63,230 nucleotides of DNA. Origin: a virus. Below, piece by piece: positions 42,998 to 60,123 of the stretch. A program made the translations under genes and the position numbers. The notes beneath the pieces were generated by a model. It was not told the origin of the DNA, made no database searches, and saw only the letters and a list, made by a program, of their open reading frames with translations. Where the stretch lies: positions 1-63,230 of the IMG/VR virus record IMGVR_UViG_3300005471_000015; one strand, 5' to 3'. The stretch's first letter is position 1. Each line of letters begins with the position of its first letter.

Positions 42998-44883
42998 AGG
43001 AGTCCTTGACTCGTCAAATATTGACCAAGCAACTTCACGTCGTGAAGCTGCTCCTGCAGGAGAAGGGTCATGCAGTAATGCTTCAGCGAGTCCTGCAAGG
43101 GCTGTATCTCTACCCGTTGACCAAGCGCCGCCACAAGGGCTGGGAGGCTGTCCCAGGCCCCGTCCAGCAGCCGGTCGGCATGGTCCGCGTCCCCCACCCG
43201 GATCCGTGTGTGCAGCTCATACGCCGGTACGTCTGGCCACCGGTCCCGATTGTGCCGGTTCAGCAAACGATTCCCAGCCCGTTCCAGGGCGCGGAGTACG
43301 GCGGCGTTGGACACTACGAACGTGTTCACTGAGGCGGGGACGGTGGCTGAAGCGGTGACCCCGGCGGGAGCTGGTGGCGGTCCGGCCGGATTGTTCTGAG
43401 CCACCGACTCCAGCGGCATGGGTCCACCGGGGGTGGCCTGGATACCGGTGGGCGGCGGTGGTGGGGGCGGAGGTCCGGCCCCTGGCTGTCCGGGCTGCTG
43501 GGGGGTGACGACGGTCTCCGGTGGGAGGATGTCGTCGGTGTACCCGGCGACCTTCCGGACGGCAGCGATCTGGAAGAGGTTGGGGTCGCGGAGCATCAGT
43601 TCCCGGGTGAACCGTCTCAGGTCCTCTTCGTCCTCGGGCAGGTCGCTGATCTTGTAGTCACCGGCGAGAAGCACTGTTTCACGTGAAACAACGTTCTTGT
43701 CGTACAGCTCCAGGGTGTCTTTGAGCCGCTCCGGTCGCACAGTCAGCGGCGCGGTGTCGTACCAGAAGACGAACCGGTCCGGGTCCTCTTTGATGGTGTC
43801 CAGGGCCGGGCGCAGGTAGGCCACGCTCAGGGCGTCACAGATCCTGGTCATCAACGGCACGATGTGCACGTTGATCTGACCTTCCATGATCTGCCAGGCC
43901 CCCCAGTGGTTGGCCTCACCCATGCCCGAGAGGATGCTCGGCTCGATGTCCATGGCCAGGGCGAACCGGCGGATGGCCTCACTGCGCAGGTCCAGGGCCT
44001 GTTTGGACAGCTCGCTGGTGAACTGGATCAGGTTGATCTTCCCGAGGGCCTCGATGGGCATCTCAACGATGGTGGGGACCACCCCAGCCGCCGTCCCCTC
44101 ACCCTGCAGGGAGGCTTGGCCCGTCTTCAGGAGTCGCTGGGTGAGCTGATCCGCGCCGGAGGTCTCCGGGTCCTCGTCCGGGAACGAGACCTCCTTGGGG
44201 ATGGGCAGGAGCCCGGCCGACACCAACCGGGAGTCGATCTGAGCGAACACATATCGGGTAAGTCGTTCTATTTCCCACAACATCGGCATAGCTGCCTTAG
44301 TGGGGGAGTCAGCCCACAGGTTGCGACGAGGGTGCGGCGTCCACACCCTGATCACCAGGTCGGTGGTCGGATCCAGCTCCTCCTTACTCCCATCGGCATT
44401 GAGCTGATGGAGTCGGCTACCCCACCGTTTCAGCTCAGAGGTGGAGACCACATACCACTCATCCGACTTAGGGTCGTCGGTTCCGCGGCCGATGATGAAA
44501 CAGTCCCCGGCAATGGTCAGGTTGATTCCCAGCATGCGCAGAGCCTCAGCCTTTGCTGAAGGGGACCCGAACAAGGTGTCCGCCAGCCCAGCGACCTTCT
44601 TGTTCGTCACCTCCTTCTGGACCCGGCCGTTCTCATCCACCTGAGCGACATAGATGCGCACCCGGGAGCAGGCCGCTCCGATCCAGTTGGCCACGAACCG
44701 CAGCTCGCCCACGATGTCGTAGAGCCGCCACGCCTCCTGTTGCCAGGTGTCGTCGCCGAACTTGTATGTGCGCCAGCCGATGTTGTCCAGCTTGATCCTG
44801 GCCGCTGACGCCACCAGGCTCTGGGTGGCATGGATGGTTGGCTGCGCCTCGGTGGGCGTTCGGACCCTTCGGGATAGACGCAC
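42994..44883 (-). CDS. Portal protein
   Basis: 629 residues. LGINLTIAGDCFIIGRGTDD, the long stem helices around residues 330-360 and the crown region follow the SPP1/HK97-type portal plan; a Pro/Gly-rich stretch (about 480-510) precedes the C-terminal crown. It sits between terminase and MuF genes. Codons for VVSRETV (near residue 400) contain a perfect parS site. Confidence 0.9.
   Translation of the reverse strand: MRLSRRVRTPTEAQPTIHATQSLVASAARIKLDNIGWRTYKFGDDTWQQEAWRLYDIVGELRFVANWIGAACSRVRIYVAQVDENGRVQKEVTNKKVAGLADTLFGSPSAKAEALRMLGINLTIAGDCFIIGRGTDDPKSDEWYVVSTSELKRWGSRLHQLNADGSKEELDPTTDLVIRVWTPHPRRNLWADSPTKAAMPMLWEIERLTRYVFAQIDSRLVSAGLLPIPKEVSFPDEDPETSGADQLTQRLLKTGQASLQGEGTAAGVVPTIVEMPIEALGKINLIQFTSELSKQALDLRSEAIRRFALAMDIEPSILSGMGEANHWGAWQIMEGQINVHIVPLMTRICDALSVAYLRPALDTIKEDPDRFVFWYDTAPLTVRPERLKDTLELYDKNVVSRETVLLAGDYKISDLPEDEEDLRRFTRELMLRDPNLFQIAAVRKVAGYTDDILPPETVVTPQQPGQPGAGPPPPPPPPTGIQATPGGPMPLESVAQNNPAGPPPAPAGVTASATVPASVNTFVVSNAAVLRALERAGNRLLNRHNRDRWPDVPAYELHTRIRVGDADHADRLLDGAWDSLPALVAALGQRVEIQPLQDSLKHYCMTLLLQEQLHDVKLLGQYLTSQGLL
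43675..43690. promoter_or_regulatory. parS: Perfect parS site inside the portal gene
   Basis: TGTTTCACGTGAAACA, the 16-bp palindrome bound by chromosomal ParB in Streptomyces, Bacillus and most bacteria, without mismatch. It is translated as VVSRETV on the minus strand. A second perfect copy is at 60089-60104. Confidence 0.95.
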
Positions 44884-44886
44884 TGG

Positions 44887-45180
44887 TTACCCCTTATCGC
44901 CCTTCTGGTCAATAAGAAGGCCGCTCACCATGGATGCGGCCGGTATCGAGTAGGCCATGACGACCCAGATATTCGGGAACAGTGCGGCGGGTGGCATGAC
45001 GAGGGCGCCGACCCAGATTGATGTACACCAGGGACAGTGGGCAAGGTAGGAGGGCTTGGATTCCGAGCCCCACCGTTTCACGACCCATCGCCGGTAGGGG
45101 TCGGCGAGGAAATCCTCCACCAGGAACCGCGTTACCCGGGCTACACATAACGCGGCCACCACCAGCGATACAACGATCAC
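44887..45180 (-). CDS. DUF1360-like membrane protein
   Basis: 97 residues with two membrane spans (1-22 and about 55-88). RVTRFLVEDFLADPYRRWV...YLAHCPWCTSIWVG matches the DUF1360 signature, with conserved R-x-T and C-P-W-C-x-x-x-W. Family function unknown. Its place between terminase and portal genes is unusual for a membrane protein. Confidence 0.7.
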   Translation of the reverse strand: MIVVSLVVAALCVARVTRFLVEDFLADPYRRWVVKRWGSESKPSYLAHCPWCTSIWVGALVMPPAALFPNIWVVMAYSIPAASMVSGLLIDQKGDKG

Positions 45181-45272
45181 GCGTATAGGCTAAGCGGAAA
45201 CGTGTGTCAAGAGGAAGAACACCACGAACCGGGACCAGTCGCCCAGGGGTCCCTGGTAAGCTAACCTGAGGC

Positions 45273-45400
45273 CGACTGATCCGATCTGCCCGGCCCGATA
45301 TGACTACTCGAACCTTGTCTCTTCACATCCCACCGACAGCCCAACCCACATCCGGTCGCATCCCATGACCCACCTACCCGCTTCGCATCGCGGCGTGGTC
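45273..45400 (+). repeat. YGAC/pentamer array 7, within the late operon
   Basis: Anchors CGAC 45273, TGAC 45301, CGAC 45334 and TGAC 45366 (spacings 28, 33, 32) with C-ending words such as CCACC TACCC GCTTC. The array reads on the plus strand although the surrounding late genes read leftward, and a hairpin terminator follows at 45411. The rest of the gap 45181-45456 holds no gene. Confidence 0.75.
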
Positions 45401-45410
45401 ACAACGACAA

Positions 45411-45439
45411 GGGCACCTGGTGCTGGCTGCCAGGTGCCC
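45411..45439. terminator. Hairpin terminator
   Basis: GGGCACCTGG pairs with CCAGGTGCCC around nine bases. It follows array 7 on the plus strand and the stop of the Ig-like gene on the minus strand. T-runs are weak on both sides. Confidence 0.6.
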
Positions 45440-45456
45440 TTGCTGGTTGGCGAGGG

Positions 45457-45951
45457 TTACGGACCAGCGTCCGGGGTGACTTCCTCGGGGGCGCCGGCTA
45501 CCACGTTCAGACGCTCGGCGAGACCGGCCACGACCACGAGCTGCAGGTCGCCGGTCAGGGTCTGGCCACCGGCTGCAGCCTCTACGTGCACGTTGGCGGT
45601 GCCCAGGGTGCCGGTAGCGGCGGCTTCAGCGGTGCCGTCACCGTTGTCCGTCAGGTTGATGATGGTGGGGTCGTCCACGGTGTACGTGACGACGGCACCG
45701 GCCGGAGCGTCCGCAGGGTTACCAACCTCGTCGGTGTATTCGACGGATAGGGCAACCTTCTTGTCGGCTTGAAGGTCCATGATCAGGTCAATCCTTCCTG
45801 TGGGGGTGTGATAGGGAGGGCCTTTGATCACACGATCGGATTCGTCGGTGTCACGAGGTGCGCCAACCCGCAGAACCAGCCTCAGCGGTTGACAACATTT
45901 GACCCGGACCGTCCAGTCAAGTGCCACCTGACCAAGGTCCCAAGTGGGCAT
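45457..45951 (-). CDS. Ig-like (BIG2-type) structural protein
   Basis: 164 residues from ATG 45951, which has GGAGG six bases upstream; ATG 45780, with AGGAAGGA upstream, would give a 107-residue form in the same frame. The C-terminal 100 residues (VALSVEYTDEVGNPAD...VTYTVDDPTIINLTDNGDGTAEAAA) are a bacterial Ig-like group 2 domain, used on phage surfaces for decoration or weak adhesion. Two in-frame starts suggest two products. Confidence 0.65.
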   Translation of the reverse strand: MPTWDLGQVALDWTVRVKCCQPLRLVLRVGAPRDTDESDRVIKGPPYHTPTGRIDLIMDLQADKKVALSVEYTDEVGNPADAPAGAVVTYTVDDPTIINLTDNGDGTAEAAATGTLGTANVHVEAAAGGQTLTGDLQLVVVAGLAERLNVVAGAPEEVTPDAGP

Positions 45952-45965
45952 CCGGCGCCTCCAGG

Positions 45966-47402
45966 TTACTGAAATAGGTTGTTCAGATCGTATAGCTGCT
46001 GGCTGAGCCGGAAGTCGTACTTCGACGGGTCGCTGACCCGCATCACCTTCCGTTCACCGGCCATCAGGTTGATGGACGCATGGACCATGGCGTCCATCCG
46101 GTCTGGACTCTCCCTGGTGGACTGCGGATCGAACAGCACCATCTGATCCTCCAGTTCGGGCCAGTCCCCCACAACGTGCAAACGACCCTGTTCACAGCGC
46201 ATGGCCACAGGCTCAGCCCGGGTCTTCTTTCCATGGCGCGCATGAACAGGCTTCATAGGGGGGGTGGTCCCCCTGGGGAACATTCCAAGCTCCACGCATT
46301 CCTGATACGCATCCTGCAGAACCTCCTGCAGGTAACGCTTACCCAGGTTTTCCTCATATACGACCAGGTCGACCATGAACTCGGCCGCTGCCCGCCAGAT
46401 AGCCAGAGCCGCCGCGCGCCCTGAGTCCGGGACGGACCGGTCGGCCAGGATGTACTGCTCGTTGTCCCGGGTGCGGCACATGATCACGATGCCGGTCAGG
46501 TTCTCCTCACCGGTAAGGTTGGGGTCCACGCCGATGACGGTGACTACCACGTCGGCGGGATCAGGGGGCTCCAGGACACGATGACGAACGATGTCGACGC
46601 GTTTGAACAGGCCACCGCTCTGCAGCTCCAGCAGTTTGCCGTACAGCTCCTGCTCGCCGAGGGCGGTGCCGTGGTAGCGCAGCTTCAACTCCCGCAGGGC
46701 GTGGGAGCTGAGGTTGACGGAGTTGTCGAATGTGGAGCCGGTGATGACGTGAATGGTGGCGTCCTCGCGGGCCAGCCATTCGATCAGCAGCTTGATCGGC
46801 TTCGGGGTGGTGGTGACGAACGCCCGAGGATGGTCACCGATCAGGTCAGCTCGCAGGGACGGCAGCAGACCCTCATACCAGGTCTCATAAGGCTTGACCC
46901 ATTTGGCCATCTCGTCGCACAGGACCCCGGCCGCGTTGTATCCACGCCCGGTGTTCTCGTCGTCGGCACCCTCCAGGTAGATCTTCGCCCCGTCGGGGAA
47001 CAACACCATGGGGCGTGGGCTCTGCTTGTAGCGGTGTTCGATCCGACGCCGGATCAGAATGTTCAGGATGCCGCTCGGGCCTTCAGCGTTGATGGTCCGA
47101 GCGTCAGCGAGGGTGTCGGCGACCACCAGCCATTCGGTGGGGACCCCGTGCCGGTCGAACGGGTGCCGGACAGCCTGATCCACGATCCATTCGGAGCCGG
47201 CTCGCGACTTCCCGGCCCCACGGCCGGCCATGAACAGGTAAATCAGCTCATCGCCTTCGGGTGGGATCTGTTCCGGCCGGGCTACATACCACCATTCCCC
47301 CCGGTTCATCTCCAGGAGGACGGCTTCGGGCAGGGTGCGGACATACTCCTCACGCACGCGGGCGGGGAGCTTGGCCATCCGTTGGGCGAGTGACAGGCCC
47401 AC
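45966..47402 (-). CDS. terL: Terminase large subunit
   Basis: 478 residues. Walker A is AGRGAGKSRAGSEW (near residue 58), Walker B is AAGVLCDEMAKW (near 165) and the coupling motif is TTTPKPIKLL (near 200). The nuclease domain has VIGVDPN (near 290), VVYEEN (near 345) and a final SPDRMDAMVHA. The ATPase drives packaging and the RNase H-like nuclease cuts concatemers. First gene of the late operon. Its small-subunit partner appears to lie 10 kb away at 57769. Confidence 0.95.
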   Translation of the reverse strand: MGLSLAQRMAKLPARVREEYVRTLPEAVLLEMNRGEWWYVARPEQIPPEGDELIYLFMAGRGAGKSRAGSEWIVDQAVRHPFDRHGVPTEWLVVADTLADARTINAEGPSGILNILIRRRIEHRYKQSPRPMVLFPDGAKIYLEGADDENTGRGYNAAGVLCDEMAKWVKPYETWYEGLLPSLRADLIGDHPRAFVTTTPKPIKLLIEWLAREDATIHVITGSTFDNSVNLSSHALRELKLRYHGTALGEQELYGKLLELQSGGLFKRVDIVRHRVLEPPDPADVVVTVIGVDPNLTGEENLTGIVIMCRTRDNEQYILADRSVPDSGRAAALAIWRAAAEFMVDLVVYEENLGKRYLQEVLQDAYQECVELGMFPRGTTPPMKPVHARHGKKTRAEPVAMRCEQGRLHVVGDWPELEDQMVLFDPQSTRESPDRMDAMVHASINLMAGERKVMRVSDPSKYDFRLSQQLYDLNNLFQ

Positions 47403-47422
47403 GGGGGACAGGGTAGATCAAA

Positions 47423-47457
47423 TTGGGCAAAAAGAAAGGCGCCCGCAGAGCGGACGC
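47423..47457 (-). terminator. Terminator-like hairpin in the late-operon leader
   Basis: On the minus strand AGGCGTCCGC pairs with GCGGGCGCCT over three bases with one mismatch, followed by TTCTTTTT. It stands between a putative late promoter and the terminase start, so late transcription may depend on read-through. Confidence 0.7.
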
Positions 47458-47556
47458 CTGGTGTGTGTGGTCCTGGTCCCGAGTAACGAAGGCCAAAGAT
47501 CTTTTTGCCGAAGATAAGCGTGTAGGCACTCGTCGGCTGGAACCTGAACCAGATCC

Positions 47557-47585
47557 AGGATACCGGATGTCGGACCCCTGGTCTA
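47557..47585 (-). promoter_or_regulatory. Putative late promoter
   Basis: On the minus strand TAGACC and TATCCT are separated by 17 bases, pointing at the terminase gene. No other good candidate lies in 47403-47600. Prediction by eye only. Confidence 0.35.
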
Positions 47586-47595
47586 CCGTGTCGGC

Positions 47596-48054
47596 ATGCC
47601 TGAGCTTAAACCGGGAGGAGTACCCTCACGAACCGTGCTCACTGACCCCCAAGAAGCCATCACGCTGGGACGTGAGGTAGTAGCTGACGGTCGCCTTAAA
47701 GAGCTGAGGGTGAATCTCGGGATCACCAGGAGCGCCATGGCGGAGTTACTCCACACCAACCTGGTCTCCTACGCCGACTGGGAGCGACGGCCCCAGGTTC
47801 AGCTTCGACCAACCACCGCTGAACGGGTGGGCCGGTTCTACTCGATCGCCATCGAGGAGCTGACCGTCCTGAAGGAGTTCGGCCTGGATCCAGGGGGGAT
47901 GTTGCCTTTCCATGTGGTCGCGGGGCAGCTCGGGGTACCACAGGAGGTCCTGCTCGACTGGTACCGGGGGGGTCGCTTCGAGGCCGTTGATGCTGGGATC
48001 TTGGGGCTGTGGGTGTCGCGGGGGACGATGCGCCGGCTGCAGAGGCAGCGGTGA
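47596..48054 (+). CDS. DNA-binding protein with two HTH-like segments
   Basis: 152 residues. LKELRVNLGITRSAMAELL (near residue 34) is an XRE-like helix-turn-helix, and VVAGQLGVPQEVLLDWYRGG (near 104) resembles a MerR/excisionase-type recognition segment. There is no clear ribosome binding site; a TACCGT box ends six bases before the ATG, so the transcript may be leaderless. It heads the replication operon and faces the late operon, making it a candidate regulator of either. Confidence 0.65.
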   Translation: MPELKPGGVPSRTVLTDPQEAITLGREVVADGRLKELRVNLGITRSAMAELLHTNLVSYADWERRPQVQLRPTTAERVGRFYSIAIEELTVLKEFGLDPGGMLPFHVVAGQLGVPQEVLLDWYRGGRFEAVDAGILGLWVSRGTMRRLQRQR

Positions 48055-48881
48055 ACTGCACGATCTGCGGCACGCTACTCGACCCGGTGGTGGAGAACTC
48101 CACCACTCATCCGGGTTGCTTCCCGTTCGCTGAGCTGGACGAGGGGGACCCGTTTGTTACGCAGATGAAGACCCTCCTCATCGATGTGATCTTGTGGGCG
48201 GAGAAGCAGCATCCCCGCCGGACCCAGGCTCCCATCGGCCCCTCTGAGCTGGGGTCGGGCTGCGACCGGCGGATCGGGTACCGGCTAGCGGGGGTGGAGC
48301 CCTGCAACACGGAGTTCGACCCCTGGCCCATGATCATGGGGACCGCCATACATTCCTGGTTGGACAACGCATTCACGAATTGGAATAGACAGAACAAAGA
48401 ATCCTGGATGACGGAGACGGCCCTCCACCTGGACGACTACGTCCGGGGCCATGCCGACCTGTACAACCGGGAGCTGGAGACGGTGATCGACTGGAAGGGG
48501 GTCGGCACCGACGTCATGCGCAAGATCAAACGGGACGGGGTGCCGGTCGGCTACCAGATCCAAACCCACCTCTACGGCTACGGCTTCACCCTCAAAGGTT
48601 TACCGGTAAAGAAGGTGTGCCTGGCGTTCCTGCCCCGCTCCGGCTGGCTCAAGGACATGTACGTCTGGTGCGACGACTACAACCAGGACATAGCCATAGG
48701 GTCCATCTACCGGTTGTACGACATCGCCGACAAGATCCTTCAGCTTGGGGTCACCACCAACCCGCACCGCTGGGAGCAGGTCGACAACATGCCATCCAAC
48801 GACTGCGGGTGGTGCCCGTGGTACAACCCCAGCCAGAGCACAGAGCTGGGGGCCAACGACAAGGGATGCCCAGGGAGGTGA
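48051..48881 (+). CDS. Cas4/RecB-like PD-(D/E)XK nuclease
   Basis: 276 residues, GTG 48051 in a four-base overlap. GTAIHSWL, GHADLY followed by VIDWKG and YQIQTHLYGYG are the H, D, D-x-K and Q-x-x-x-Y motifs of the RecB nuclease family. CGWCPWYN and a final CPG, with CTICG...HPGC at the N-terminus, could bind an Fe-S cluster or zinc as in Cas4. Likely processes DNA ends during replication or recombination; there is no cas1/cas2. Confidence 0.8.
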   Translation: MNCTICGTLLDPVVENSTTHPGCFPFAELDEGDPFVTQMKTLLIDVILWAEKQHPRRTQAPIGPSELGSGCDRRIGYRLAGVEPCNTEFDPWPMIMGTAIHSWLDNAFTNWNRQNKESWMTETALHLDDYVRGHADLYNRELETVIDWKGVGTDVMRKIKRDGVPVGYQIQTHLYGYGFTLKGLPVKKVCLAFLPRSGWLKDMYVWCDDYNQDIAIGSIYRLYDIADKILQLGVTTNPHRWEQVDNMPSNDCGWCPWYNPSQSTELGANDKGCPGR

Positions 48882-48882
48882 A

Positions 48883-49074
48883 ATGACAGCAGAGTGGTAT
48901 GTGGCCATGGGGGAAGCCGTGGGCCAGCGCAACCGTGCGCTGAGCATGGTGAACCAGTGGCAGAAGAAGGTGAACGCCGCCGAGACCCGGATCCAGAACC
49001 TGGCCGAACAGCGACGTGCAGACGACACAGGAAACGTTCCCTTTGAGCAGGTGCAGGTACAGGAGCAACCGTGA
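48883..49074 (+). CDS. Small coiled-coil protein in replication operon
   Basis: 63 residues, ATG 48883 after GGGAGGTGAA. Helical with heptads from about residue 15 to 45 and a polar Gln-rich tail. No family. Coupled to the next gene by a four-base overlap. Confidence 0.6.
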   Translation: MTAEWYVAMGEAVGQRNRALSMVNQWQKKVNAAETRIQNLAEQRRADDTGNVPFEQVQVQEQP

Positions 49075-49685: not shown

Positions 49686-49693
49686 TGTGAAAA

Positions 49694-49734: not shown

Positions 49735-49757
49735 ATTCCTACCAACCAACTCGACGG

Positions 49758-52315: not shown

Positions 52316-52326
52316 CCCGGAAAAAC

Positions 52327-52354: not shown

Positions 52355-52386
52355 TGCGGTAGACCCCGACGCAAGAAGGGAGGAAA

Positions 52387-53169
52387 ATGGGACAACGAGT
52401 GCCTTTGTCCAGCATTTGGACAAATAGGGCACTGGACCCTGATGACGATATCAGCAAACTTGCTGAGCACATCAATGATTCAGGTCTCCAGGTACCTATC
52501 CTAGTCAGCAGCGACTACATACTCATCGATGGTCTCCGTCGCCTGAAGGCTGTTGCCAGTCTCGATCAGACCACTATCGAAGTGGTCGCTGTGAATCTGT
52601 TCGATCAGGCAATGGCCTGGATCAAGCGGGCCCGGGAGCATGGTGTCGAGGCTCGCCCACTGGTACCTCGACGGATCGCGGAACTGTATGCAGCTTGTCG
52701 CCCGTTGATGAACCTGTCGCGGTCGCTCAAGATGCGCGGAGTCCAGTACGGGACCGGGGTCCGCGTTGGCGGAAGACCAAGTTTCCTCGACGCTATTGGA
52801 CTGGAGTCAGAGTCATACCTGCAGGCTGTCACCCAGATCTACCGAATGGCCGAACGGGACGATGACAAAGGTCGATGGGCCCGGGACATGTTGCCATTGG
52901 TGGACAACGAAACCGTGTCACCGTACATGGCCCTGGACTACGTCCGGAGACGTACCGAGAAGGGCAACGTCGTCAAGCTGGAGGAACAACGACTGGTCGT
53001 CATGAACACGAGGGCGGCCTTGACGGGAATCCTGTACAGCCTGCGGCAACTGGGTCCCCTGGACCCGGAACTCAACCGGGACACCGAAGGACTCATCGAT
53101 GATCTACGAAGGATGCGACGCACCCTCCACCAACTCATCAACCGACTCACCAAGGAGCAAACGCAGTGA
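52387..53169 (+). CDS. ParB-fold protein 1
   Basis: 260 residues, ATG after GGGAGGAAA. VPLSSIWTNRALDPDDDISKLAEHI and ILIDGLRRLKA match the ParB/Srx N-terminal domain; the CTP-binding box G-E-R-R reads G-L-R-R. A helical middle, SFLDAIGLESESYLQAVTQIYRMA, might include a DNA-binding helix pair, and the C-terminus is a coiled coil. No ParA is encoded. It may regulate replication, bind DNA, or cooperate with the parS sites (unproven). Confidence 0.7.
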   Translation: MGQRVPLSSIWTNRALDPDDDISKLAEHINDSGLQVPILVSSDYILIDGLRRLKAVASLDQTTIEVVAVNLFDQAMAWIKRAREHGVEARPLVPRRIAELYAACRPLMNLSRSLKMRGVQYGTGVRVGGRPSFLDAIGLESESYLQAVTQIYRMAERDDDKGRWARDMLPLVDNETVSPYMALDYVRRRTEKGNVVKLEEQRLVVMNTRAALTGILYSLRQLGPLDPELNRDTEGLIDDLRRMRRTLHQLINRLTKEQTQ

Positions 53170-53966
53170 GTGAAACCACCTACACCGTGGAGAAGATCCC
53201 GGTAAAACTTCTTGAGGTGGATCCTCGCGTACAACGGGATCAGCTCAAGATGAAGAAGGTCATGGAGATCGAAAAGAACTTCAATGACGATGCCGCTGGC
53301 GTGCTGTACATCTCCCGGCGCAAGGACTCCGGGCTGTACATCATCGACGGCTGGCACCGTAAGGAAGCCATGTTCCGCAAGAACCCGGACTACGAGGCGA
53401 CCTGCCACGTGTTCGAGGGCCTGACCCTGGCCCAGGAGGCGCTCATGTTCCTGGACCTGAACTACGCCGACAAGCCGACGCAGCTCGACAAGTACAAGGT
53501 GCGGCTGGCGGCCGAAGACGCGGAGTCCATGCTCATCGAGCAGATCACCACATCCCGCGGGTGGAAGGTCCACCCGGTGCCGGCGCCCAGCCACATTCAG
53601 GCGGTCAGCGCCCTGTACCGCATCCTTCTCCTGTCGGAGAAGGTGCACGCGGAACCGCACCTGCTCGACGCCACGCTCCTGGTCATCACCCGGGCGTGGG
53701 GCAACGATCAGCATGGATCTCAGGCAGTCATCCTGGAGGGCATCGCGGCGGTCATCGCCGAGTACGGGGACAAGCTGAACCTCGGTGTCCTGGTCGAGAA
53801 GCTGCGGGACCGTGGTGGAGGGCCCCGGGAGCTGCACACCAACGCAACAGCGTTGGCGGCTACTCGCAACGGTCGAGTGGTCAATGCGGTGTCCGAGCTG
53901 GTGGTGGCGACCTACAACCGCAGCCTGCGTGGCCGTGGTGTGACGCCGTGGCGGAAGCAGACCTAG
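53166..53966 (+). CDS. ParB-fold protein 2 (ParB-like nuclease type)
   Basis: 266 residues, ATGA-type overlap with protein 1. VEKIPVKLLEVDPRVQRDQLK and LYIIDGWHRKEAMF are the paired motifs of actinophage ParB-like nuclease-domain proteins (D-G-x-H-R). The rest is helical. Family knowledge: related phage proteins are uncharacterised or act in DNA metabolism. It shares an operon with ParB-fold protein 1. Confidence 0.75.
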   Translation: MSETTYTVEKIPVKLLEVDPRVQRDQLKMKKVMEIEKNFNDDAAGVLYISRRKDSGLYIIDGWHRKEAMFRKNPDYEATCHVFEGLTLAQEALMFLDLNYADKPTQLDKYKVRLAAEDAESMLIEQITTSRGWKVHPVPAPSHIQAVSALYRILLLSEKVHAEPHLLDATLLVITRAWGNDQHGSQAVILEGIAAVIAEYGDKLNLGVLVEKLRDRGGGPRELHTNATALAATRNGRVVNAVSELVVATYNRSLRGRGVTPWRKQT

Positions 53967-53967
53967 C

Positions 53968-54042
53968 CGACGTCTCACGTCAGCACAGATCGGATCCATG
54001 CTGACATGTCACTCCAGTTGCAACCCATGTCGAATCTGACAT
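53968..54042 (+). repeat. Short YGAC/pentamer array 8
   Basis: CGAC at 53968 and TGAC at 54002 (spacing 34) with words such as GTCTC ACGTC AGCAC, just behind the stop codon of ParB-fold protein 2 and before a terminator. Confidence 0.6.
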
Positions 54043-54049
54043 GACAAAC

Positions 54050-54088
54050 AAAAAAGGCGCCCTGCCACTGCGGCAGGGCGCCTTTTTT
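54050..54088. terminator. Bidirectional terminator
   Basis: AAAAAAGGCGCCCTGCC pairs with GGCAGGGCGCCTTTTTT around five bases. Separates the rightward replication operon from the leftward gene ending at 54099. Confidence 0.95.
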
Positions 54089-54098
54089 GTGTCTTCGG

Positions 54099-54794
54099 TT
54101 AGCTCAGGTGCACCTCGGTCTGGGTGTGGTACCCGTTCCCGTTGAAAGTCGGAACCGGCTTGTTCTTCAGCTCCGACTTGACGGTGGCGACGTAGCCGGG
54201 GCTCGCCTCAGCGAGCCGCGCCAGTTCGTCCACCGTAGCTTCGGGACGCTCCCGGAGCAGGATGTGGATCCGCTCCCGTTTGGTCAGCTTCTTCTCGGTC
54301 GGGACCACGTCGACAACACGTTCCCTGGTTGCTCGTGCATCCTTGAGGCCGTCGACTTTGACTTCCAGGTCCCGCATCTGGGACTGGACTTCCATGACCC
54401 CCACGGATCCAGTGATCATGAAGGCGTCGATGGCACCAGGGAGCAGGAACGCCTGAGTCTCATCGTGCCCCCAGCGAAGGAACGCGTCCTTCTGGTGGAA
54501 GTACGAGACATAGGCGGTCACTCCCGCAATGCACACGGTGGCGCCGATCCTGACCCCGATACCGATCCAGCGTAGGACGCCGGGCTTCTCGGGGATGGGG
54601 ATCCTGCTTCCGACCTCGAAGGAGATGAGCAGCAGGGACGGGGAGACGATCGCGATGAGGATCGAGAAGAAGTTGAGTTCTGCGTGGAGCACGTTGAACG
54701 TGGCTGACACAAGGTAGCCGACAACCACCATGCTCCGGTTGGCCCACAGGAGCCATTGGAGGTGTTTGAGCTTTTTCTGAAGTCGTTCGAGCAT
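54099..54794 (-). CDS. DUF2637/SpdB-like membrane protein with C-terminal HTH
   Basis: 231 residues. Four membrane spans (about 14-33, 38-60, 75-97 and 112-135), with SYFHQKDAFLRWG...LLPGAIDAFMI as in DUF2637, the family of Streptomyces plasmid spread proteins. A coiled segment and a helix-turn-helix, KRERIHILLRERPEATVDELARL, follow. Family knowledge: Spd proteins assist intramycelial plasmid spreading. In a phage it could help spread or membrane-link DNA in hyphae (inference). Confidence 0.75.
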   Translation of the reverse strand: MLERLQKKLKHLQWLLWANRSMVVVGYLVSATFNVLHAELNFFSILIAIVSPSLLLISFEVGSRIPIPEKPGVLRWIGIGVRIGATVCIAGVTAYVSYFHQKDAFLRWGHDETQAFLLPGAIDAFMITGSVGVMEVQSQMRDLEVKVDGLKDARATRERVVDVVPTEKKLTKRERIHILLRERPEATVDELARLAEASPGYVATVKSELKNKPVPTFNGNGYHTQTEVHLS

Positions 54795-54884
54795 GGTTCA
54801 TCCCTCCCTAAAGGGTTGAATAAGGGTGATTGTTCGGGGCCGACGGGGGCGTAGCCTCATCCGTCCGGTCACCCGGATTACACA

Positions 54885-54913
54885 ACAGTACCCGAGGGAG
54901 GGGTGGGTGTCAA
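54885..54913 (-). promoter_or_regulatory. Putative promoter with C-rich spacer
   Basis: On the minus strand TTGACA, a 17-base spacer with CCCACCCCTCCC, and TACTGT. Points at the SpdB-like gene, about 90 bases upstream of its ATG. One of the best matches to the consensus in the window. Confidence 0.65.
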
Positions 54914-54917
54914 GGGG

Positions 54918-55157
54918 TTAGGGAGTTTTCCTGAACACTCCCCGTGCGAGCCGGCACCAGAAGCACCGGCAGGAACACCGAGGTGGCGGGTAGGTGATGT
55001 GCATCCAACAGCCACCTTGTGTCATGCAGTGTGGCCAGGCTCCCCAGTTCTCGTCCCACTCGGTCCTTGCCAGGAGCGGCAGGAACACCCTCGGCTTGCT
55101 GTACCAGTAGATGTACTCCCACACGAGCCGGAGCCCGCGTGGCTCTTGCTGTTCCAT
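54918..55157 (-). CDS. Small Cys/Trp-rich protein
   Basis: 79 residues; ATG 55157 with GAAGGAGGG upstream. VWEYIYWYSKPRVFLPLLA at the N-terminus and a C-terminal half with six cysteines (CMTQGGCWMH, CSCRCFWC) that may bind a metal. No family. A perfect 16-bp hairpin precedes it. Confidence 0.55.
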   Translation of the reverse strand: MEQQEPRGLRLVWEYIYWYSKPRVFLPLLARTEWDENWGAWPHCMTQGGCWMHITYPPPRCSCRCFWCRLARGVFRKTP

Positions 55158-55171
55158 GATCCCTCCTTCGA

Positions 55172-55210
55172 GTAACACGGGCGTAGGGTTTCGGCCTACG
55201 CCCGTGTTAC
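55172..55210. terminator. Perfect 16-bp hairpin between small genes
   Basis: GTAACACGGGCGTAGG pairs with CCTACGCCCGTGTTAC around seven bases. It lies after the stop of the gene at 55221 and 14 bases before the start of the next. No T-run; may be an attenuator or processing site. Confidence 0.7.
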
Positions 55211-55220
55211 CTCTTGAGAA

Positions 55221-55457
55221 CTAGTGGTACCGATGGTCAGGATCCGACACCCAGACGTAGCCGGTGTTGTTCGTGATCCTGCCCTTGAGCATCAACTCAA
55301 GTTGATCATCGGTGGCCTCGTCCAACGGGACATACTCACCGGTCACGCACTCCGTGCAGCCACAGCCAGGTGGATCTATGGCTATGGGCAGCTTCGGCAC
55401 CAGGTGCTCTGGCACCAGGGCCAGGTCACCGAGTCGCCGGATGTTGTCCTTGTTCAT
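55221..55457 (-). CDS. Small acidic protein with Cys pair
   Basis: 78 residues, ATG 55457 with AAGGAGGAATC. A Cys cluster CGCTEC in the middle and a beta-like C-terminus GYVWVSDPDHRYH. No family. Its leader contains a terminator behind the promoter at 55542. Confidence 0.6.
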   Translation of the reverse strand: MNKDNIRRLGDLALVPEHLVPKLPIAIDPPGCGCTECVTGEYVPLDEATDDQLELMLKGRITNNTGYVWVSDPDHRYH

Positions 55458-55470
55458 GATTCCTCCTTGA

Positions 55471-55516
55471 GGAAAAGGAATCCGGCCCCAGGGCTTCCGT
55501 ATGCCTGGGGCCGGAT
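55471..55516 (-). terminator. Terminator between promoter and gene
   Basis: ATCCGGCCCCAGG pairs with CCTGGGGCCGGAT over an 11-base loop, and on the minus strand is followed by TTCCTTTTCC. It lies between the promoter at 55542 and the gene at 55457, so expression must need read-through. Confidence 0.75.
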
Positions 55517-55541
55517 CCGTGGTGCTCTTTCTATCTCCTCT

Positions 55542-55569
55542 ACTGTAGCACGGGAGGGGAGGGTGTCAA
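55542..55569 (-). promoter_or_regulatory. Putative promoter with C-rich spacer
   Basis: On the minus strand TTGACA, a 16-base spacer with CCCTCCCCTCCC, and TACAGT. It drives the gene at 55457 through a terminator. Confidence 0.65.
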
Positions 55570-55757
55570 GAAGACTTGGGCTTCGGTTTCAGGATCACCT
55601 TGGCGCAGTCCTCGCACAAGGCCGCTACGCCGTACAACTTGGCTGGCTTGTGGCACTTGATGCCAACCGGCGCCCCGGCCCATGTCTCCCAGTCGATGAT
55701 CGCCTCGCATCTGTATTCAGCAGCCAACGTCGCAGTCCTCCACGTCGAGTCGTACAT
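55566..55757 (-). CDS. Small zinc-finger-like protein
   Basis: 63 residues, ATG 55757. Cysteines in YRCEAI, IKCHKP and ALCEDCAKV form a C-C-C-C set typical of short zinc ribbons; Lys-rich C-terminus. Overlaps the preceding gene by 41 bases. Confidence 0.6.
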   Translation of the reverse strand: MYDSTWRTATLAAEYRCEAIIDWETWAGAPVGIKCHKPAKLYGVAALCEDCAKVILKPKPKSS

Positions 55758-55968
55758 CGTGGCGACACCGGGCACCACGAGGTTCGACCTGCATCGCCTT
55801 GAGCATGTACTGCAGGAACGAGCAGGCGGTGCAGGTGTGGGGCAGGAACCCCATGACTCCGTGCCCCACGTGCGTGTACAGCTCGGCGTAGAGCAGGCTC
55901 CTGGCGGGCTGAGTCTCCCGCCAGGAGTCGTACTCTGCCTCGGTGAGGAACCAGCGGGTGGTGGCCAT
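55717..55968 (-). CDS. Small Cys-containing protein
   Basis: 83 residues; ATG 55968 in a TGATG overlap with the upstream stop. TTRWFLTEAEYDSWRETQPA is a common opening of short phage proteins. CTACSF and a C-terminal C-x-V-G-C could bind metal, but the tail lies in the overlap with the next gene. Function unknown. Confidence 0.5.
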   Translation of the reverse strand: MATTRWFLTEAEYDSWRETQPARSLLYAELYTHVGHGVMGFLPHTCTACSFLQYMLKAMQVEPRGARCRHDVRLDVEDCDVGC

Positions 55969-56450
55969 CAGTGGGAGTAGTGGAACAGGCACCAGCGGTT
56001 CTGGTTGTTGATCGCTGGATAGTGTGACCGACATTCGAGGATTTGTGGCTGGTTGAGTATTTCAAACCCATAGATCCGGATTTGGCTGCCGTAGCCGCAC
56101 ACCGTGTCCCAGCCGGTCGGCGGGTCAACGTGATCTGTGTGCCCGTGACTGTTCAGGAACCGCACCCGGACGTCGGCACACTCGTTCCGGTCGCTGCTGA
56201 ACCCATAGGTGGTGAACGTGCCGGAGTGGTGGCAGGTGACGAAGTTGCCGAACTGGAACCAGTAGTAGGGGGCCGGGAGCCAGGTCCCCCAGTCCGGCAG
56301 CATGTTGGGGTCGGTCCAGGAGTGCGAGCACGAGTAGGCGACGGCGGGGCTGCTGGTGGCGGCGTTGACGACGGCAGCGGTTCCCCCGATGAGGGTCAGT
56401 GCAGCGAAGATCGTCAATGCCTTGTTGCGGAGTTGGTTGGGGAATCTCAC
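55968..56450 (-). CDS. Secreted Cys-containing protein
   Basis: 160 residues; GTG 56450 with GGAGGAAAA upstream. Residues 1-30 are a clear signal peptide (basic start, ALTIFAALTLIGGTAAVVNA, then SSPAVA). The mature part has six cysteines and many aromatic residues, fitting an exported protein with disulfides. A secreted early-type phage protein could act on the cell surface, for instance in exclusion of other phages (inference). Confidence 0.7.
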   Translation of the reverse strand: MRFPNQLRNKALTIFAALTLIGGTAAVVNAATSSPAVAYSCSHSWTDPNMLPDWGTWLPAPYYWFQFGNFVTCHHSGTFTTYGFSSDRNECADVRVRFLNSHGHTDHVDPPTGWDTVCGYGSQIRIYGFEILNQPQILECRSHYPAINNQNRWCLFHYSH

Positions 56451-56671
56451 TTTTCCTCCGGTTTGTAGTCCTCCCACGCGGGGATGTGGCGGTGGACGAG
56501 GGTCAACCCGGTCCAGGTGAACCAGGTGCCCTCGGGGGTCATGATGGTTTGTCCTTCCATACGTTCCTGGAAGGTGGCGGCCTTGTCCAGGCTGCCGAAC
56601 TCTCTGATCTTGCCGCCGGGGAGAACAACACCCCAGGCGTCGTAGTCCCCGTCTTCAGCTCGTCTCATCAT
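56447..56671 (-). CDS. Small hypothetical protein
   Basis: 74 residues; tandem ATGs at 56671/56668 after CCAGGAGC. Beta-rich, with DAWGVVLPGGKIREF and TPEGTWFTWTGL. No family. Ends in an overlap with the secreted-protein start. Confidence 0.55.
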   Translation of the reverse strand: MMRRAEDGDYDAWGVVLPGGKIREFGSLDKAATFQERMEGQTIMTPEGTWFTWTGLTLVHRHIPAWEDYKPEEK

Positions 56672-56876
56672 GCTCCTGGGTCCGGACTCCTGCCTGATGA
56701 TCGATGACGAATCGTTGATCTTTAACGTGACCCTTGGCCATCCACCCATCGTCCAGGCACACGGCCACCATGTGTTGGTCATCGGCCAGGAGCCGCCCCC
56801 GACGGTCTACCCGGACTGTTGGCTGGGATTCCAGCGGGATGTCCTGGTCACAGTTGGGGCAGGTCACCACTCTCAT
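56655..56876 (-). CDS. Small zinc-ribbon-type protein
   Basis: 73 residues, ATG 56876. Opens MRVVTCPNCDQDIPL, one Cys pair of a ribbon, followed by a basic strand and a later cysteine (VAVCLDDG). Overlaps both neighbours by a few bases. Function unknown. Confidence 0.6.
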   Translation of the reverse strand: MRVVTCPNCDQDIPLESQPTVRVDRRGRLLADDQHMVAVCLDDGWMAKGHVKDQRFVIDHQAGVRTQEHDETS

Positions 56877-57166
56877 GTCTTGATCACCTTCGCCTTCTCT
56901 GCCGCTATCCCGATCCATCGGAAGATGATCGGGACCCAGATGATGGCCGCGAACCTCCACTCGTGGACCTGGTACGCGTACAGGCTCCAGAGCCCGGCCA
57001 CGATGAGCTTGCTGGTCATCCAGACCATAGTGAGGGAGCACCCTGCCCATCCGTACTGCTTCACGGTGGACTTGATGGCATGGGACACCTCCCTATTGAC
57101 CATGACCATGGCGGTACTGAGGGCTGAGGACAGGGTCACGAGGGCCAGGATGAGGTTCAGGACCAT
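56873..57166 (-). CDS. Membrane protein, first gene of the leftward arm
   Basis: 97 residues with three hydrophobic spans (about 2-22, 44-63 and 69-88). Its promoter, start codon and second codon lie in repeat R1, identical to those of the gene at 91, but the proteins differ from residue 3 on. The two membrane-protein genes are thus expressed from the same control sequence in opposite directions. Confidence 0.7.
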   Translation of the reverse strand: MVLNLILALVTLSSALSTAMVMVNREVSHAIKSTVKQYGWAGCSLTMVWMTSKLIVAGLWSLYAYQVHEWRFAAIIWVPIIFRWIGIAAEKAKVIKT

Positions 57167-57172
57167 CCCCCC

Positions 57173-57201
57173 ACCCTACCCCTCCCTATGCCAGGACTCA
57201 A
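57173..57201 (-). promoter_or_regulatory. Putative promoter (R1 mirrored copy)
   Basis: Same boxes as at 56-84 (TTGAGT, 17 bases, TAGGGT), here pointing left into the gene at 57166. Confidence 0.5.
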
Positions 57202-57215
57202 GGTGTCCTGTTTCA

Positions 57216-57461
57216 TTGATCAGGCTCCCTGTCCCGGCCCCCCGCTCCATCGATCAGGCTCCCTGTCCCCGCCCCCTGAACCCTTGATCACCGATATATA
57301 CAGTTGATCATTAGGTGGCGCATGTGGCGCATCGTTTCCTAACCCTGGACCCTTTTTCCTGAACCTGTTACATATGGTATTTTTTTTTTCTGGGGACCTT
57401 TTCCGAAACTCACTACGCCACCTACAGATCAACTTACTATTGACAAAAGGGGACATTTTAC
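57216..57461. other. AT-richer region with GATCA-type repeats, origin candidate
   Basis: GATCAGGCTCCCTGTCCC occurs twice as a direct repeat (near 57219 and 57252), and TTGATCA occurs twice near 57284 and 57303. GTGGCGCAT is tandemly repeated near 57317, and a run of ten T lies near 57377. The stretch 57280-57450 is the most AT-rich part of the window. Together these could be an origin or a control region; direct evidence is lacking. Confidence 0.35.
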
Positions 57462-57920
57462 ATGAAACCGGAGTACGGGGAGGTCGTGCGGAGGTTCCTA
57501 GCCGATCAAGGCGGCCTGTACCGCTACCTTCAGATGCGCTGGTGGCACCTGGACGATGGATACTGGACCAGGGAATCAGGTAGAGGGGCCCTGGAACGAG
57601 ACTTGATCAACTGGATGTACGGGTACGCTCCCGGCCCCCTGAAGAACATGACCATCGCCGACATGAACCACATGTGCGCGGCCATGTCTCGCACCCTGAC
57701 CACCACCAGGCTCCCCGCCCGGTACATCGATGCGGATCAGGACCCCGCGATCATAAACTGGAGATCCTTCACAGCGTCCCCTCGTTCATCCGAGCCTCCA
57801 GCTCAGCCAGACCCCGGATCACCAGCTCCGCCTTCGGCACCAGGTCCCCGTCCGGCTGATCCGCACCCGGCTGCGGAAGGTCAAGCCGGTACAGTTTCGC
57901 CAGCCGGTCACACACCCTGA
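57462..57920 (+). CDS. Hypothetical protein with Pro-rich tail
   Basis: 152 residues, ATG after AAAAGGGGACATTTTAC. The first 105 residues look genuine: helical, with YRYLQMRWWHLDDGYWTRESG and a methionine-rich segment. The last 45 are Pro/Ala/Ser-rich and read antisense to the small terminase gene, so conservation probably ends near residue 105. Function unknown. Confidence 0.6.
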   Translation: MKPEYGEVVRRFLADQGGLYRYLQMRWWHLDDGYWTRESGRGALERDLINWMYGYAPGPLKNMTIADMNHMCAAMSRTLTTTRLPARYIDADQDPAIINWRSFTASPRSSEPPAQPDPGSPAPPSAPGPRPADPHPAAEGQAGTVSPAGHTP

Positions 57921-58086
57921 TCCCGGCTTCGATGAAGCGTGGATCAGGCTTCCCGGCGGCTCCGATGATCCAGGGTTCGCAGGTGCGCCAGATCTTCTCC
58001 AGCCGTTCCACGACCAGGGCCCGGACGAGGGGTGCGGATTCACTGATCTGGTCGTCGGCGATGCCTCGGGTGGTCAACTCGTCCAT
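57769..58086 (-). CDS. Probable terminase small subunit
   Basis: 105 residues, ATG 58086. VRALVVERLEKIWRTCEPWIIGAAG followed by PDPRFIEAGIRVCDRLAKLYRLD resembles short actinophage small-terminase-like proteins with a G-K-P-D-P-R-F turn and a helix giving DNA contact and ring formation. It lies 10 kb from the large subunit and inside the inferred inverted repeat, as if next to the packaging site. Assignment is tentative. Confidence 0.5.
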   Translation of the reverse strand: MDELTTRGIADDQISESAPLVRALVVERLEKIWRTCEPWIIGAAGKPDPRFIEAGIRVCDRLAKLYRLDLPQPGADQPDGDLVPKAELVIRGLAELEARMNEGTL

Positions 58087-58112
58087 GCCAACAGCATGCA
58101 GACCCGGGTTCC

Positions 58113-58157
58113 TGCATATCAACATGCACCAGGGCAAAGATGCATATCAACATGCAC
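58113..58157. promoter_or_regulatory. Tandem operator-like sites
   Basis: TGCATATCAACATGCAC occurs exactly twice, at 58113-58129 and 58141-58157, 28 bp apart. Each contains TGCAT and its complement ATGCA separated by six bases. They lie 27 bases upstream of the small-terminase-like start and are good candidates for binding of a dimeric regulator or the packaging protein. Confidence 0.6.
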
Positions 58158-58402
58158 AGAAGGACTGTGTGCTCGTGCCAGGGTCCCTGACACCTCACGG
58201 GCACCTGAGCCTGGTCCACTCAACTAAGACATCGAAGAGGAGTCATGGACCATTGCGTCAGGGTTCAGGCACCCTTTTCTTAGCGGGGGCCGGGTGCGAT
58301 GATCCACTGATTCCTCGGGTGCCTGCTCCCTGTGGGGGGTCAAGGGCGCCATGGATCTTGGCTGCGCAGGGCCCCAGGGGGCTGGCCATGGGGCGGGGCG
58401 AG
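58158..58402. other. Gap without a recognised gene
   Basis: Contains inverted GGGTGCC/GGCACCC elements and a 12-codon frame at 58225 preceded by GAGGAG that might be a leader peptide. Otherwise nothing identifiable. Confidence 0.3.
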
Positions 58403-58513
58403 GGGGCAAGATCAAGGATCATGGGGGCCTTGATCAGGGATCATGAGACAGGGTGCCCCTGCCCCCTGGCCCGGGTGCGGGCACAGGGGGCAAGGGGGGA
58501 GGGGGCTAGTGGG
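58403..58513. repeat. R2 inverted repeat, inner copy
   Basis: 111 bases identical to the reverse complement of 63120-63230. Contains GATCA-rich and G-rich tracts. The stop of the gene at 58506 and, in the other copy, the end of the gene at 63054 both touch the inner border. Confidence 0.97.
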
Positions 58514-58769
58514 CTGCCCGCCACTCATCCACGCGAGCCGCGAACCCAGTCAAGGTCCGCGGACACCCGGTCATGTCGATCAGGTCACCGGTGGCCAGGA
58601 TGAGGAGCTGCCCGGTCTCGGCGTGTAGCTCGTGCCGGTACACGGTGGCGTACGCTCCGCCGTCCCATACGTACGTGTGCCGGTCGCCCGGGCTGTACCG
58701 GTAGGCTGGCACCGTCCCATCATCGGGCACGGTCGATGTGACCCTCTCGATCATCTTCCGTCGAGGCAT
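58506..58769 (-). CDS. Small hypothetical protein with leader stem-loop
   Basis: 87 residues, ATG 58769 with GGAGGCGATC. Mixed alpha/beta (HTYVWDGGAYATVYRHELHAETGQLLILATGDL). Upstream CCGTCCACCGTGGACGG (gene sense) forms a hairpin identical to the one before the gene at 62101. The last codons lie in R2. Function unknown. Confidence 0.6.
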   Translation of the reverse strand: MPRRKMIERVTSTVPDDGTVPAYRYSPGDRHTYVWDGGAYATVYRHELHAETGQLLILATGDLIDMTGCPRTLTGFAARVDEWRAAH

Positions 58770-58784
58770 GATCGCCTCCATTCT

Positions 58785-58801
58785 CCGTCCACGGTGGACG
58801 G
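58785..58801 (-). promoter_or_regulatory. Leader stem-loop
   Basis: CCGTCCACCGTGGACGG in gene sense, an eight-pair palindrome, 16 bases before the ATG at 58769. Same 17 bases in gene sense at 62068-62084. Confidence 0.7.
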
Positions 58802-58842
58802 TCACCGCACCCGGGGTCCTGTGTGGACACCGGGTGCCGTGA

Positions 58843-58974
58843 TCACTCCACAGTGGGCTTCCCGATCTTGTGCTCGATCCGTCCGAGCGTCCGCCTGATC
58901 GCACCCAGTGACCAGGCGATGATCTCTAACTGAAACGTGATCAACACCATGATGATCATTATTGCTTTGATCAT
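58843..58974 (-). CDS. 43-residue membrane protein
   Basis: ATG 58974 overlaps the stop of the preceding gene. Residues 2-24 are a membrane span rich in Ile and Met, followed by a basic helix (RRTLGRIEHKIG). Function unknown. Confidence 0.55.
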   Translation of the reverse strand: MIKAIMIIMVLITFQLEIIAWSLGAIRRTLGRIEHKIGKPTVE

Positions 58975-59144
58975 CAGGCATCCCACTCCACCGACACGGT
59001 GATCGAGTCGGGCCGTGGGAGCGGCAGCGCCGCCTTCGGCACGTACAGCGTGCGCAGGGCACCGGTGTCGCTGCCTGGCATGTCGTACCGGTGCGTACCC
59101 TTGGTCTCCTTGGTCCACACCAGCGTGACCTTGATCGGCTCCAT
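58974..59144 (-). CDS. Small protein whose start lies in a hairpin loop
   Basis: 56 residues; ATG 59144 preceded by AAGGGAGG. GGCTCCA (just before) pairs with TGGAGCC (just after) so that the start codon is in the loop. The product is beta-rich and polar (KVTLVWTKETKGTHRYDM). Function unknown; translation control by this hairpin is inference. Confidence 0.6.
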   Translation of the reverse strand: MEPIKVTLVWTKETKGTHRYDMPGSDTGALRTLYVPKAALPLPRPDSITVSVEWDA

Positions 59145-59153
59145 TGTGGAGCC
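59137..59153 (-). promoter_or_regulatory. Start-codon stem-loop
   Basis: GGCTCCA and TGGAGCC enclose the ATG of the gene at 59144; part of the ribosome binding site is in the stem. Confidence 0.6.
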
Positions 59154-59238
59154 TCCCTTCATGATCCGTTCACCCGACCATCGGGTGCCACGGTGCCGGG
59201 CGCAGGGCTCCCGGCGCCATGGGTGGCGATGGTCAAGC

Positions 59239-59355
59239 TCACCAGTACCAGCGACCGGTCAGCCGGCCCCACCGGGCTCCCAGCTTGCGCTGGACCCACC
59301 GGGGGGCCCGGTAGAACCGGGTGTCGCCGTACTGGTCGGTGCACTGCACTACCAT
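59239..59355 (-). CDS. 38-residue basic protein
   Basis: ATG 59355 after GAGCAAGGATC. Product is rich in Arg and Trp (FYRAPRWVQRKLGARWGRLT). Found by inspection; codon pattern and ribosome binding site agree with the neighbours. Function unknown. Confidence 0.5.
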   Translation of the reverse strand: MVVQCTDQYGDTRFYRAPRWVQRKLGARWGRLTGRWYW

Positions 59356-59373
59356 GATCCTTGCTCCGTTCCT

Positions 59374-59422
59374 CGTCCGACCGTCGGACGTGACCGTACA
59401 CTGTGGAGTGTCCACAGTGTAC
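59374..59422 (-). promoter_or_regulatory. Two palindromes upstream of a small gene
   Basis: CGTCCGAC/GTCGGACG (59374-59390) and GTACACTGTGGA/TCCACAGTGTAC (59396-59422, 12-bp arms, three-base centre). The second belongs to the GTCCAC...GTGGAC leader family of this arm; it could also be a protein-binding site. Confidence 0.6.
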
Positions 59423-59441
59423 GATCATGCTCGGTGGTCGG

Positions 59442-59588
59442 CTACTCGATCGTGATCTCAAGCCCGGAGGCGGTAGCCTCGCTCTCAGAGATCGTGATCT
59501 CATCGGCCTTGATCGTGACCGTCTTCCCGTTCTCGATCGCCTGGTGGAGCACGTCGAGGATCTTGGTCAAGTGCTCGGACTCGGACAT
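59442..59588 (-). CDS. 48-residue hypothetical protein
   Basis: ATG 59588 after AGGAGTGATC. Acidic helix then beta strands (TVTIKADEITISESEA). Upstream ACTGCCCA...TGGACAGT is a member of the leader stem-loop family. Function unknown. Confidence 0.55.
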   Translation of the reverse strand: MSESEHLTKILDVLHQAIENGKTVTIKADEITISESEATASGLEITIE

Positions 59589-59678
59589 GATCACTCCTAA
59601 CTCGACTGTCCACGCTGGGCAGTCGGCAGGGATCATCGATCACGGGGGGATGCCCCGGGTGCGCGTGCCCGGCCCGAG

Positions 59679-59741
59679 TTACACGGTTGCCCGCGGCGGG
59701 ACTCGGCCAACGGCGGCAGGGTGCCTGCCTCGCACGGCCAT
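59679..59741 (-). CDS. Possible 20-residue peptide
   Basis: ATG 59741 with a weak GAGG upstream; product is basic and Pro/Arg-rich. A GTCCACCCTGGAC palindrome lies upstream as for other genes in this arm, the only reason to list it. Confidence 0.25.
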   Translation of the reverse strand: MAVRGRHPAAVGRVPPRATV

Positions 59742-59812
59742 GATGTTGAGCCTCGATGATCCCTGCTCACTGTCCAGGGTGGACGGCCCCCGGTCGCCCG
59801 GGGGCCTGTACC

Positions 59813-60028
59813 CTAGTCGTACTCGACGCTGACCCACCCGTTCTCCATGAGGTCCCGCAGGACCCCGGAGGTCGTCCGACACACGTCCGCGACGCCCATG
59901 CCGGTCGCCCGGAGGTCGATCATTGCCTGCGCCACCCGGGCGCTCATGTACCGACCAAGGTCGTTACGGAGCGCGTTTCGGATAGCTCGCTGCTCGTCCG
60001 TGATACGGATCTTGCTTCCCTCGGCCAT
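59813..60028 (-). CDS. Small helical protein near parS
   Basis: 71 residues, ATG 60028 after GGGAGGCCAGCG. Helical with ITDEQRAIRNALRNDLGRYMS and VADVCRTTSGVLRDLM; might hold a short DNA-binding helix pair. The perfect parS at 60089 is 61 bases upstream of its start. Function unknown. Confidence 0.6.
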   Translation of the reverse strand: MAEGSKIRITDEQRAIRNALRNDLGRYMSARVAQAMIDLRATGMGVADVCRTTSGVLRDLMENGWVSVEYD

Positions 60029-60088
60029 CGCTGGCCTCCCGTTCGTGCCTGCTGTCCAGGGGGTTCCTGGGCAGTCACGGCGTGGCCA

Positions 60089-60104
60089 TGTTTCACGTGA
60101 AACA
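60089..60104. promoter_or_regulatory. parS: Perfect parS site, intergenic
   Basis: TGTTTCACGTGAAACA without mismatch; the palindrome extends by two more bases on each side (CA/TG). Lies between two small leftward genes, not in a coding sequence. Confidence 0.95.
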
Positions 60105-60123
60105 TGACCCACCGTGATGTTGG

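Follow-up and report, generated by a model that had tools for sequence, protein, structure and literature searches.

Two chromosomal-type parS sites on a phage contig without a detected ParA, and a possible role for host ParB

Why does a phage carry perfect copies of a bacterial centromere when no ParA can be found in its genome? The question is raised by a viral contig of 63,230 nucleotides, the whole of which is referred to here as the window, in which the parS palindrome TGTTTCACGTGAAACA occurs exactly twice without mismatch, at 43675-43690 (site 1) and at 60089-60104 (site 2). As a preliminary description of this DNA had stated, both are perfect chromosomal-type sites, the first within the portal protein gene (42994-44883, minus strand; PHROG 776, E = 4.1e-152) and the second intergenic. 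The two exact copies have the form of a chromosomal parS, a 16-bp palindrome with the 14-bp core GTTTCACGTGAAAC, and this core is also present in four actinobacterial genomes (6-26 copies each), each of which has a ParB above the TIGR00180 cut-off. Moreover, TGTTTCACGTGAAACA is the consensus parS of a study in which 17 ParBs of varied clades favoured parS over NBS (PMC7383237). Read on the minus strand, site 1 forms the codons GTT TCA CGT GAA ACA (VSRET). The 16-mer of site 2 is part of a 20-nt perfect palindrome, CATGTTTCACGTGAAACATG (60087-60106), flanked by small ORFs at 59813-60028 and 60124-60300 (both minus strand). No other perfect palindrome in the window is as long as these two (16 and 20 nt). 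We considered that extended palindromic flanks might be a peculiarity of the phage sites, but rejected this, since chromosomal parS have such flanks too.

These sites are not expected from the composition of the DNA. Composition models of order 0-3 predict 2.0e-6 to 4.4e-6 exact copies, and two exact copies were found in 0 of 100 dinucleotide shuffles of the window. Thus, the earlier claim that the sites lie beyond chance stands, but the figure of ~1e-5 given with it was too high. We found no further matches with up to three mismatches elsewhere in the window (0.13 expected by chance, from dinucleotide shuffles).

Even if the sites did not arise by chance, site 1 might reflect selection on the VSRET peptide instead of on DNA. 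We scanned IMG/VR with the window's portal protein, which yielded 80 relatives in viral contigs, and we took as the closest clade eight other records, seven of them the closest by the portal scan (portals ~75-80% identical) and the eighth found by pattern search; some are near copies, and the eight comprise six distinct phages besides the window. All eight records have GTTTCACGTGAAACA in the same five portal codons; the outermost T is substituted in two clade records, with the 14-bp core unbroken. Portal DNA identity is 71-80% between distinct complete clade genes and synonymous identity is 0.43-0.62, yet GTT TCA CGT GAA ACA is constant. Among 375 degenerate codons with an invariant residue in the clade portals, 53 are codon-invariant; VSRET is the sole invariant run of five codons (the next longest has three), and the per-residue codon-invariance rates at VSRET multiply to ~4e-7. 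The longest invariant DNA stretch in the clade portal gene is likewise the 17-nt run at site 1. Outside the clade, VSRET is often kept, but in other codons (GTC AGC CGG GAA ACG and similar) that form no palindrome. Since the codons are invariant amid ~50% synonymous identity and VSRET is written in other codons outside the clade, we conclude from the comparison of sequences that site 1 is kept in the window's clade by selection on DNA, beyond the encoded peptide. Selection on the peptide has in its favour that VSRET is old at this portal position, but it does not account for the use of other VSRET codons outside the clade or for site 2, which does not encode VSRET. We therefore rejected both chance and peptide selection, on the sequence statistics and on codon invariance in the clade, and regard them as scarcely credible. 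The likeliest history, as far as the alignments tell, is that the VSRET peptide is older and that synonymous changes later turned its codons into parS. In two distinct phages of the clade (four records), the portal gene contains another in-frame parS, close to the N-terminus of the protein, which is missing from the other clade members.

Across the wider family, parS sites were found in 11 of 50 records and not in the other 39, while the reversed control pattern gave 0 matches across the 50. Where a site in these records departs from the 16-mer, only the outermost base differs and the 14-bp core is unbroken. Five changes of the parS label (present or absent) are required on the portal tree, and the family data suggest that parS was gained separately elsewhere in the family. 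The absence of parS is weak evidence because the negative records are mostly fragments, often without the repeat-flanked segment described below, and fragmentary records are also part of the reason why near-identical portals can differ in this label. The preliminary description had named conservation of VSRET and parS in related portal genes as the point to check, and loss of the palindrome in most relatives as evidence against the sites. Taken literally, the palindrome is lost in most relatives, since the wider family often has VSRET without it, but it is invariant in the clade, and the pattern as a whole is one of DNA selection within the clade and separate gains elsewhere.

The location of the family's sites follows two themes, in that they recur near terminase, portal and protease genes and in a repeat-flanked segment. 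In the window, the terminase large subunit is encoded at 45966-47402 (minus strand; PHROG 2, E = 8e-20), and site 2 lies in a segment of ~4.6 kb (58514-63119) that appears, from inverted copies at the contig ends, to be flanked by repeats: positions 1-96 are an inverted copy of 57161-57256, and positions 63120-63230 of 58403-58513. The simplest reading of these assembly ends is a circular map in which a collapsed inverted repeat of ~1.35 kb flanks the 4.6-kb segment. This segment also encodes a tRNA-His (gtg) according to ARAGORN (60876-60969), which at 94 nt is long for a tRNA. A similar layout is found in relatives G027 and G025, and at one end only in G015, with segments of 4.3-4.8 kb. G015 has eight parS sites inside 5 kb and G027 has four inside 1.6 kb, and in these two the segment contains all or most of the sites; in G025 it contains none, and the single parS lies directly past the terminase 3' end (parS at L222:5452, terminase match at L222:5471-6904). 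A further relative, G013, has one parS close to its right end. Such recurrence would be compatible with a role in transcription or topology, in which ParB spreading silences or insulates the small-gene segment or neighbouring late genes, or SMC is recruited for replication or packaging; the ParB of some species represses promoters near parS (PMC5521831). We consider this role unlikely, however, as site positions differ widely among phages and the promoter context is not established.

The occurrence of parS extends to isolated phages. Two 30-mers that contain parS but differ in their flanks had matches in 361 and 360 records of isolated phages, compared to 7 and 3 for two shuffled palindromes (none at full identity), such that parS-like matches are ~50-100 fold commoner in these records, which are redundant. 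The near absence of shuffled palindromes from phages again argues against chance. The hosts of the matching phages include Listeria, Microbacterium, Arthrobacter, Gordonia, Bacillus, Lactobacillus, Pseudomonas and Curtobacterium. Phages of Escherichia, Salmonella and Klebsiella, enterobacteria without chromosomal ParABS, were found neither among the ten leading genera nor among the matches sampled. Mycobacterium phages were not among the leading genera either, and Mycobacterium hosts do have ParABS. When eight isolated phage genomes were searched whole, parS was present in all eight and a ParA match (PF13614) in none. The Arthrobacter phages Ranunculus and Beagle, with portals ~33-34% identical to that of the window, have three and one in-frame parS sites, respectively, in portal/protease genes, all of which read VSRET. 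The phi29-like phage Goe1 has one perfect parS in the endolysin gene and one site with a single mismatch, and in B103 and Chedec 11 the parS match is likewise in the endolysin gene. Pseudomonas phage phiPsa374 has a one-base parS variant in its terminal repeats; the parS-like sites of both this phage and Vibrio phage phi 3 lie in direct terminal repeats. We also noted that bajarodino virus 3, 6 and 7 (~6 kb) have 10-12 parS places each, counted on both strands (~5-6 sites per genome). No isolated phage gave a near-identity DNA match to the window. A search of open-access full texts gave no survey of parS in phages.

Which ParB would read these sites? In line with the earlier statement that the phage has no ParA, neither the window nor its relatives gave a match to PF13614 or PF01656, and the phage thus lacks the ParA-family ATPase of a self-contained ParABS system. 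Two adjacent plus-strand genes encode proteins with ParB-like folds. The product of 52387-53169 matches ParB-like PHROGs, and most of its predicted model matches Noc/ParB (Foldseek E = 1e-5), although with low TM-scores of 0.25-0.36; the product of 53166-53966 is a DUF6551 protein (PF20188, E = 2.3e-14; ParB-like PHROG 1033), and a DUF6551 fusion of a ParB-like fold is reported to bind ATP (PMC12704722). The first of these proteins, whose gene is widespread in the family, might read the sites for partition without a ParA, or in replication, condensation or packaging. We regard this as improbable. Its profile aligns to known ParBs over the N-terminal domain only, leaving the DNA-binding region unaligned, and the recognition motif common to Streptomyces chromosomal ParBs was not seen in it; its homologues across the family are only 28-48% identical, a sign of fast divergence, and occur in relatives G034 and G047, which have no detected parS (although these records may be incomplete); a PF02195 match is absent from most of the other phages with parS that we checked. 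A stronger argument, that the parS-richest relatives lack the ParB-fold protein by the PF02195 search, was tried and rejected. The G027 homologue had escaped the Pfam model, and the G015 contig stops inside the primase gene, ahead of the place of the ParB-fold gene, so that we kept only the weaker argument from ParB-fold proteins where parS is undetected. Since the phage ParB-fold protein is also found in relatives with no detected parS and is without the chromosomal recognition motif, host ParB appears from sequence to be the likelier reader of the sites. In Streptomyces sp. NRRL WC-3618, the parB gene (L392) has a frame containing VSRET, with the parS core just upstream of the ParB-domain match; the VSRET reading of parS is thus common to this parB frame and the phage portal.

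As the host, the preliminary description pointed to Streptomyces, which is possible but not established: the 16-mer is found in bacterial chromosomes of many phyla among the matches listed, the isolated phages with the nearest portals infect Microbacterium, Gordonia, Arthrobacter, Curtobacterium and Actinoplanes, and no prophage relative was found among bacterial genomes, a pattern scan of 84,980 genomes for prophages having returned no portal relatives. The gene content (terminase, portal, head morphogenesis, major head protein, tail tube, tape measure and primase/polymerase) is ~30-35% identical to that of phages of Arthrobacter, Gordonia, Microbacterium and Actinoplanes; the phage is siphovirus-like and its host is probably actinobacterial. 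Neither the window nor 11 relatives gave a match to PF00589 or PF00239, and the phage thus has no detected integrase or serine recombinase that would mark it as a temperate integrating phage. Other cargo includes a PIG-L type deacetylase (8044-8904; PF02585), which is unusual for a phage. The tail genes are separated from the early region by a minus-strand block (11602-21644) in which we noted a methyltransferase, a lectin-like match and several glycosyltransferases.

We favour the reading, with a probability of about 0.55, that the host centromere is present here in two functional copies, at which host ParB would load to bring about tethering, positioning or partition of phage DNA. In this scheme, host ParB-CTP would load at the phage parS after infection or during replication of the phage genome and would slide onto the adjoining phage DNA; host ParA and/or the SMC machinery would then handle the phage genomes in cis. 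Phage genomes might thereby be anchored close to the nucleoid or a pole and moved away from one another, and might be inherited under delayed lysis, in a putative carrier state, in slow growth, or in the spore if the host sporulates. The binding and spreading of ParB, and a benefit in positioning or partition, are steps that we infer; what is observed here is the identity of the sites, their non-randomness, their conservation as DNA in the clade, their recurrence elsewhere, and the lack of ParA and integrase matches. Against host ParB acting in cis, parS was not detected in the majority of the family records (which are for the most part fragments), many virulent phages lack parS, and Mycobacterium phages are not among the leading genera.

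Alternatively, the sites could be decoys, such that replicating phage genomes draw ParB off the host origin and disturb chromosome segregation. At 2-8 sites per genome, numerous phage copies could together present more sites than the 6-26 core sites of the four actinobacterial genomes. However, most records have few sites (1-2), titration would be effective only late in infection, and it would not need a fixed position, yet the clade keeps site 1 fixed; this makes the decoy rather improbable. Thus, among three options raised earlier, hitch-hiking on host ParB is the one that the sequence comparisons favour, titration of host ParB is possible but weaker, and loading of a phage ParB-fold protein is disfavoured.

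More broadly, the use of a host centromere in cis without ParA could be a common and repeatedly evolved phage strategy where hosts have ParABS, one that includes apparently virulent phages of non-sporulating bacteria and whose benefit (positioning, segregation or SMC recruitment) is other than spore entrapment; we hold this wider reading tentatively, at a little less than an even chance. Spore entrapment itself was rejected as the general benefit, because many of the isolated phages with parS have hosts in genera without spore formation. The finding suggests that the centromere of bacteria is open to common use by phages. The role of host ParB for a lytic virus, and the shaping of viral DNA by ParB loading or SMC, are directly testable, and the Arthrobacter globiformis phages Beagle and Ranunculus are laboratory-tractable relatives whose 1-3 in-frame sites could be removed synonymously.

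Several known systems resemble this one in part. P1 and the extrachromosomal mycobacterial prophages also carry centromere-like sites on phage DNA, where they serve partition, but these phages supply ParA and ParB themselves and rely on sites of their own, whereas the present sites match the chromosomal consensus and the search for a ParA was negative. The ParBs of the Streptomyces plasmid SCP1 similarly bind sites that differ from the chromosomal one (PMC13245405). Phages that co-opt the host regulators CtrA, LexA and Spo0A via sites on phage DNA (PMC9437464) are a further parallel, since a host DNA-binding protein would be recruited to phage DNA sites here as well; there the protein is a transcription factor, whereas here it would be a chromosome-segregation clamp. 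The phi29 family is similar in having phage parS without a ParABS of its own, and handling by host ParB, which we propose here, would extend the likeness: PMC9437464, citing Meijer et al. 2005, has host Spo0J (ParB) taking part in spore entrapment. In contrast to that endospore-forming host and its entrapment of phage DNA, the sites described here lie in a portal gene and a repeat-flanked segment, the host is probably actinobacterial, and the window's relatives and other parS carriers infect non-sporulating genera.
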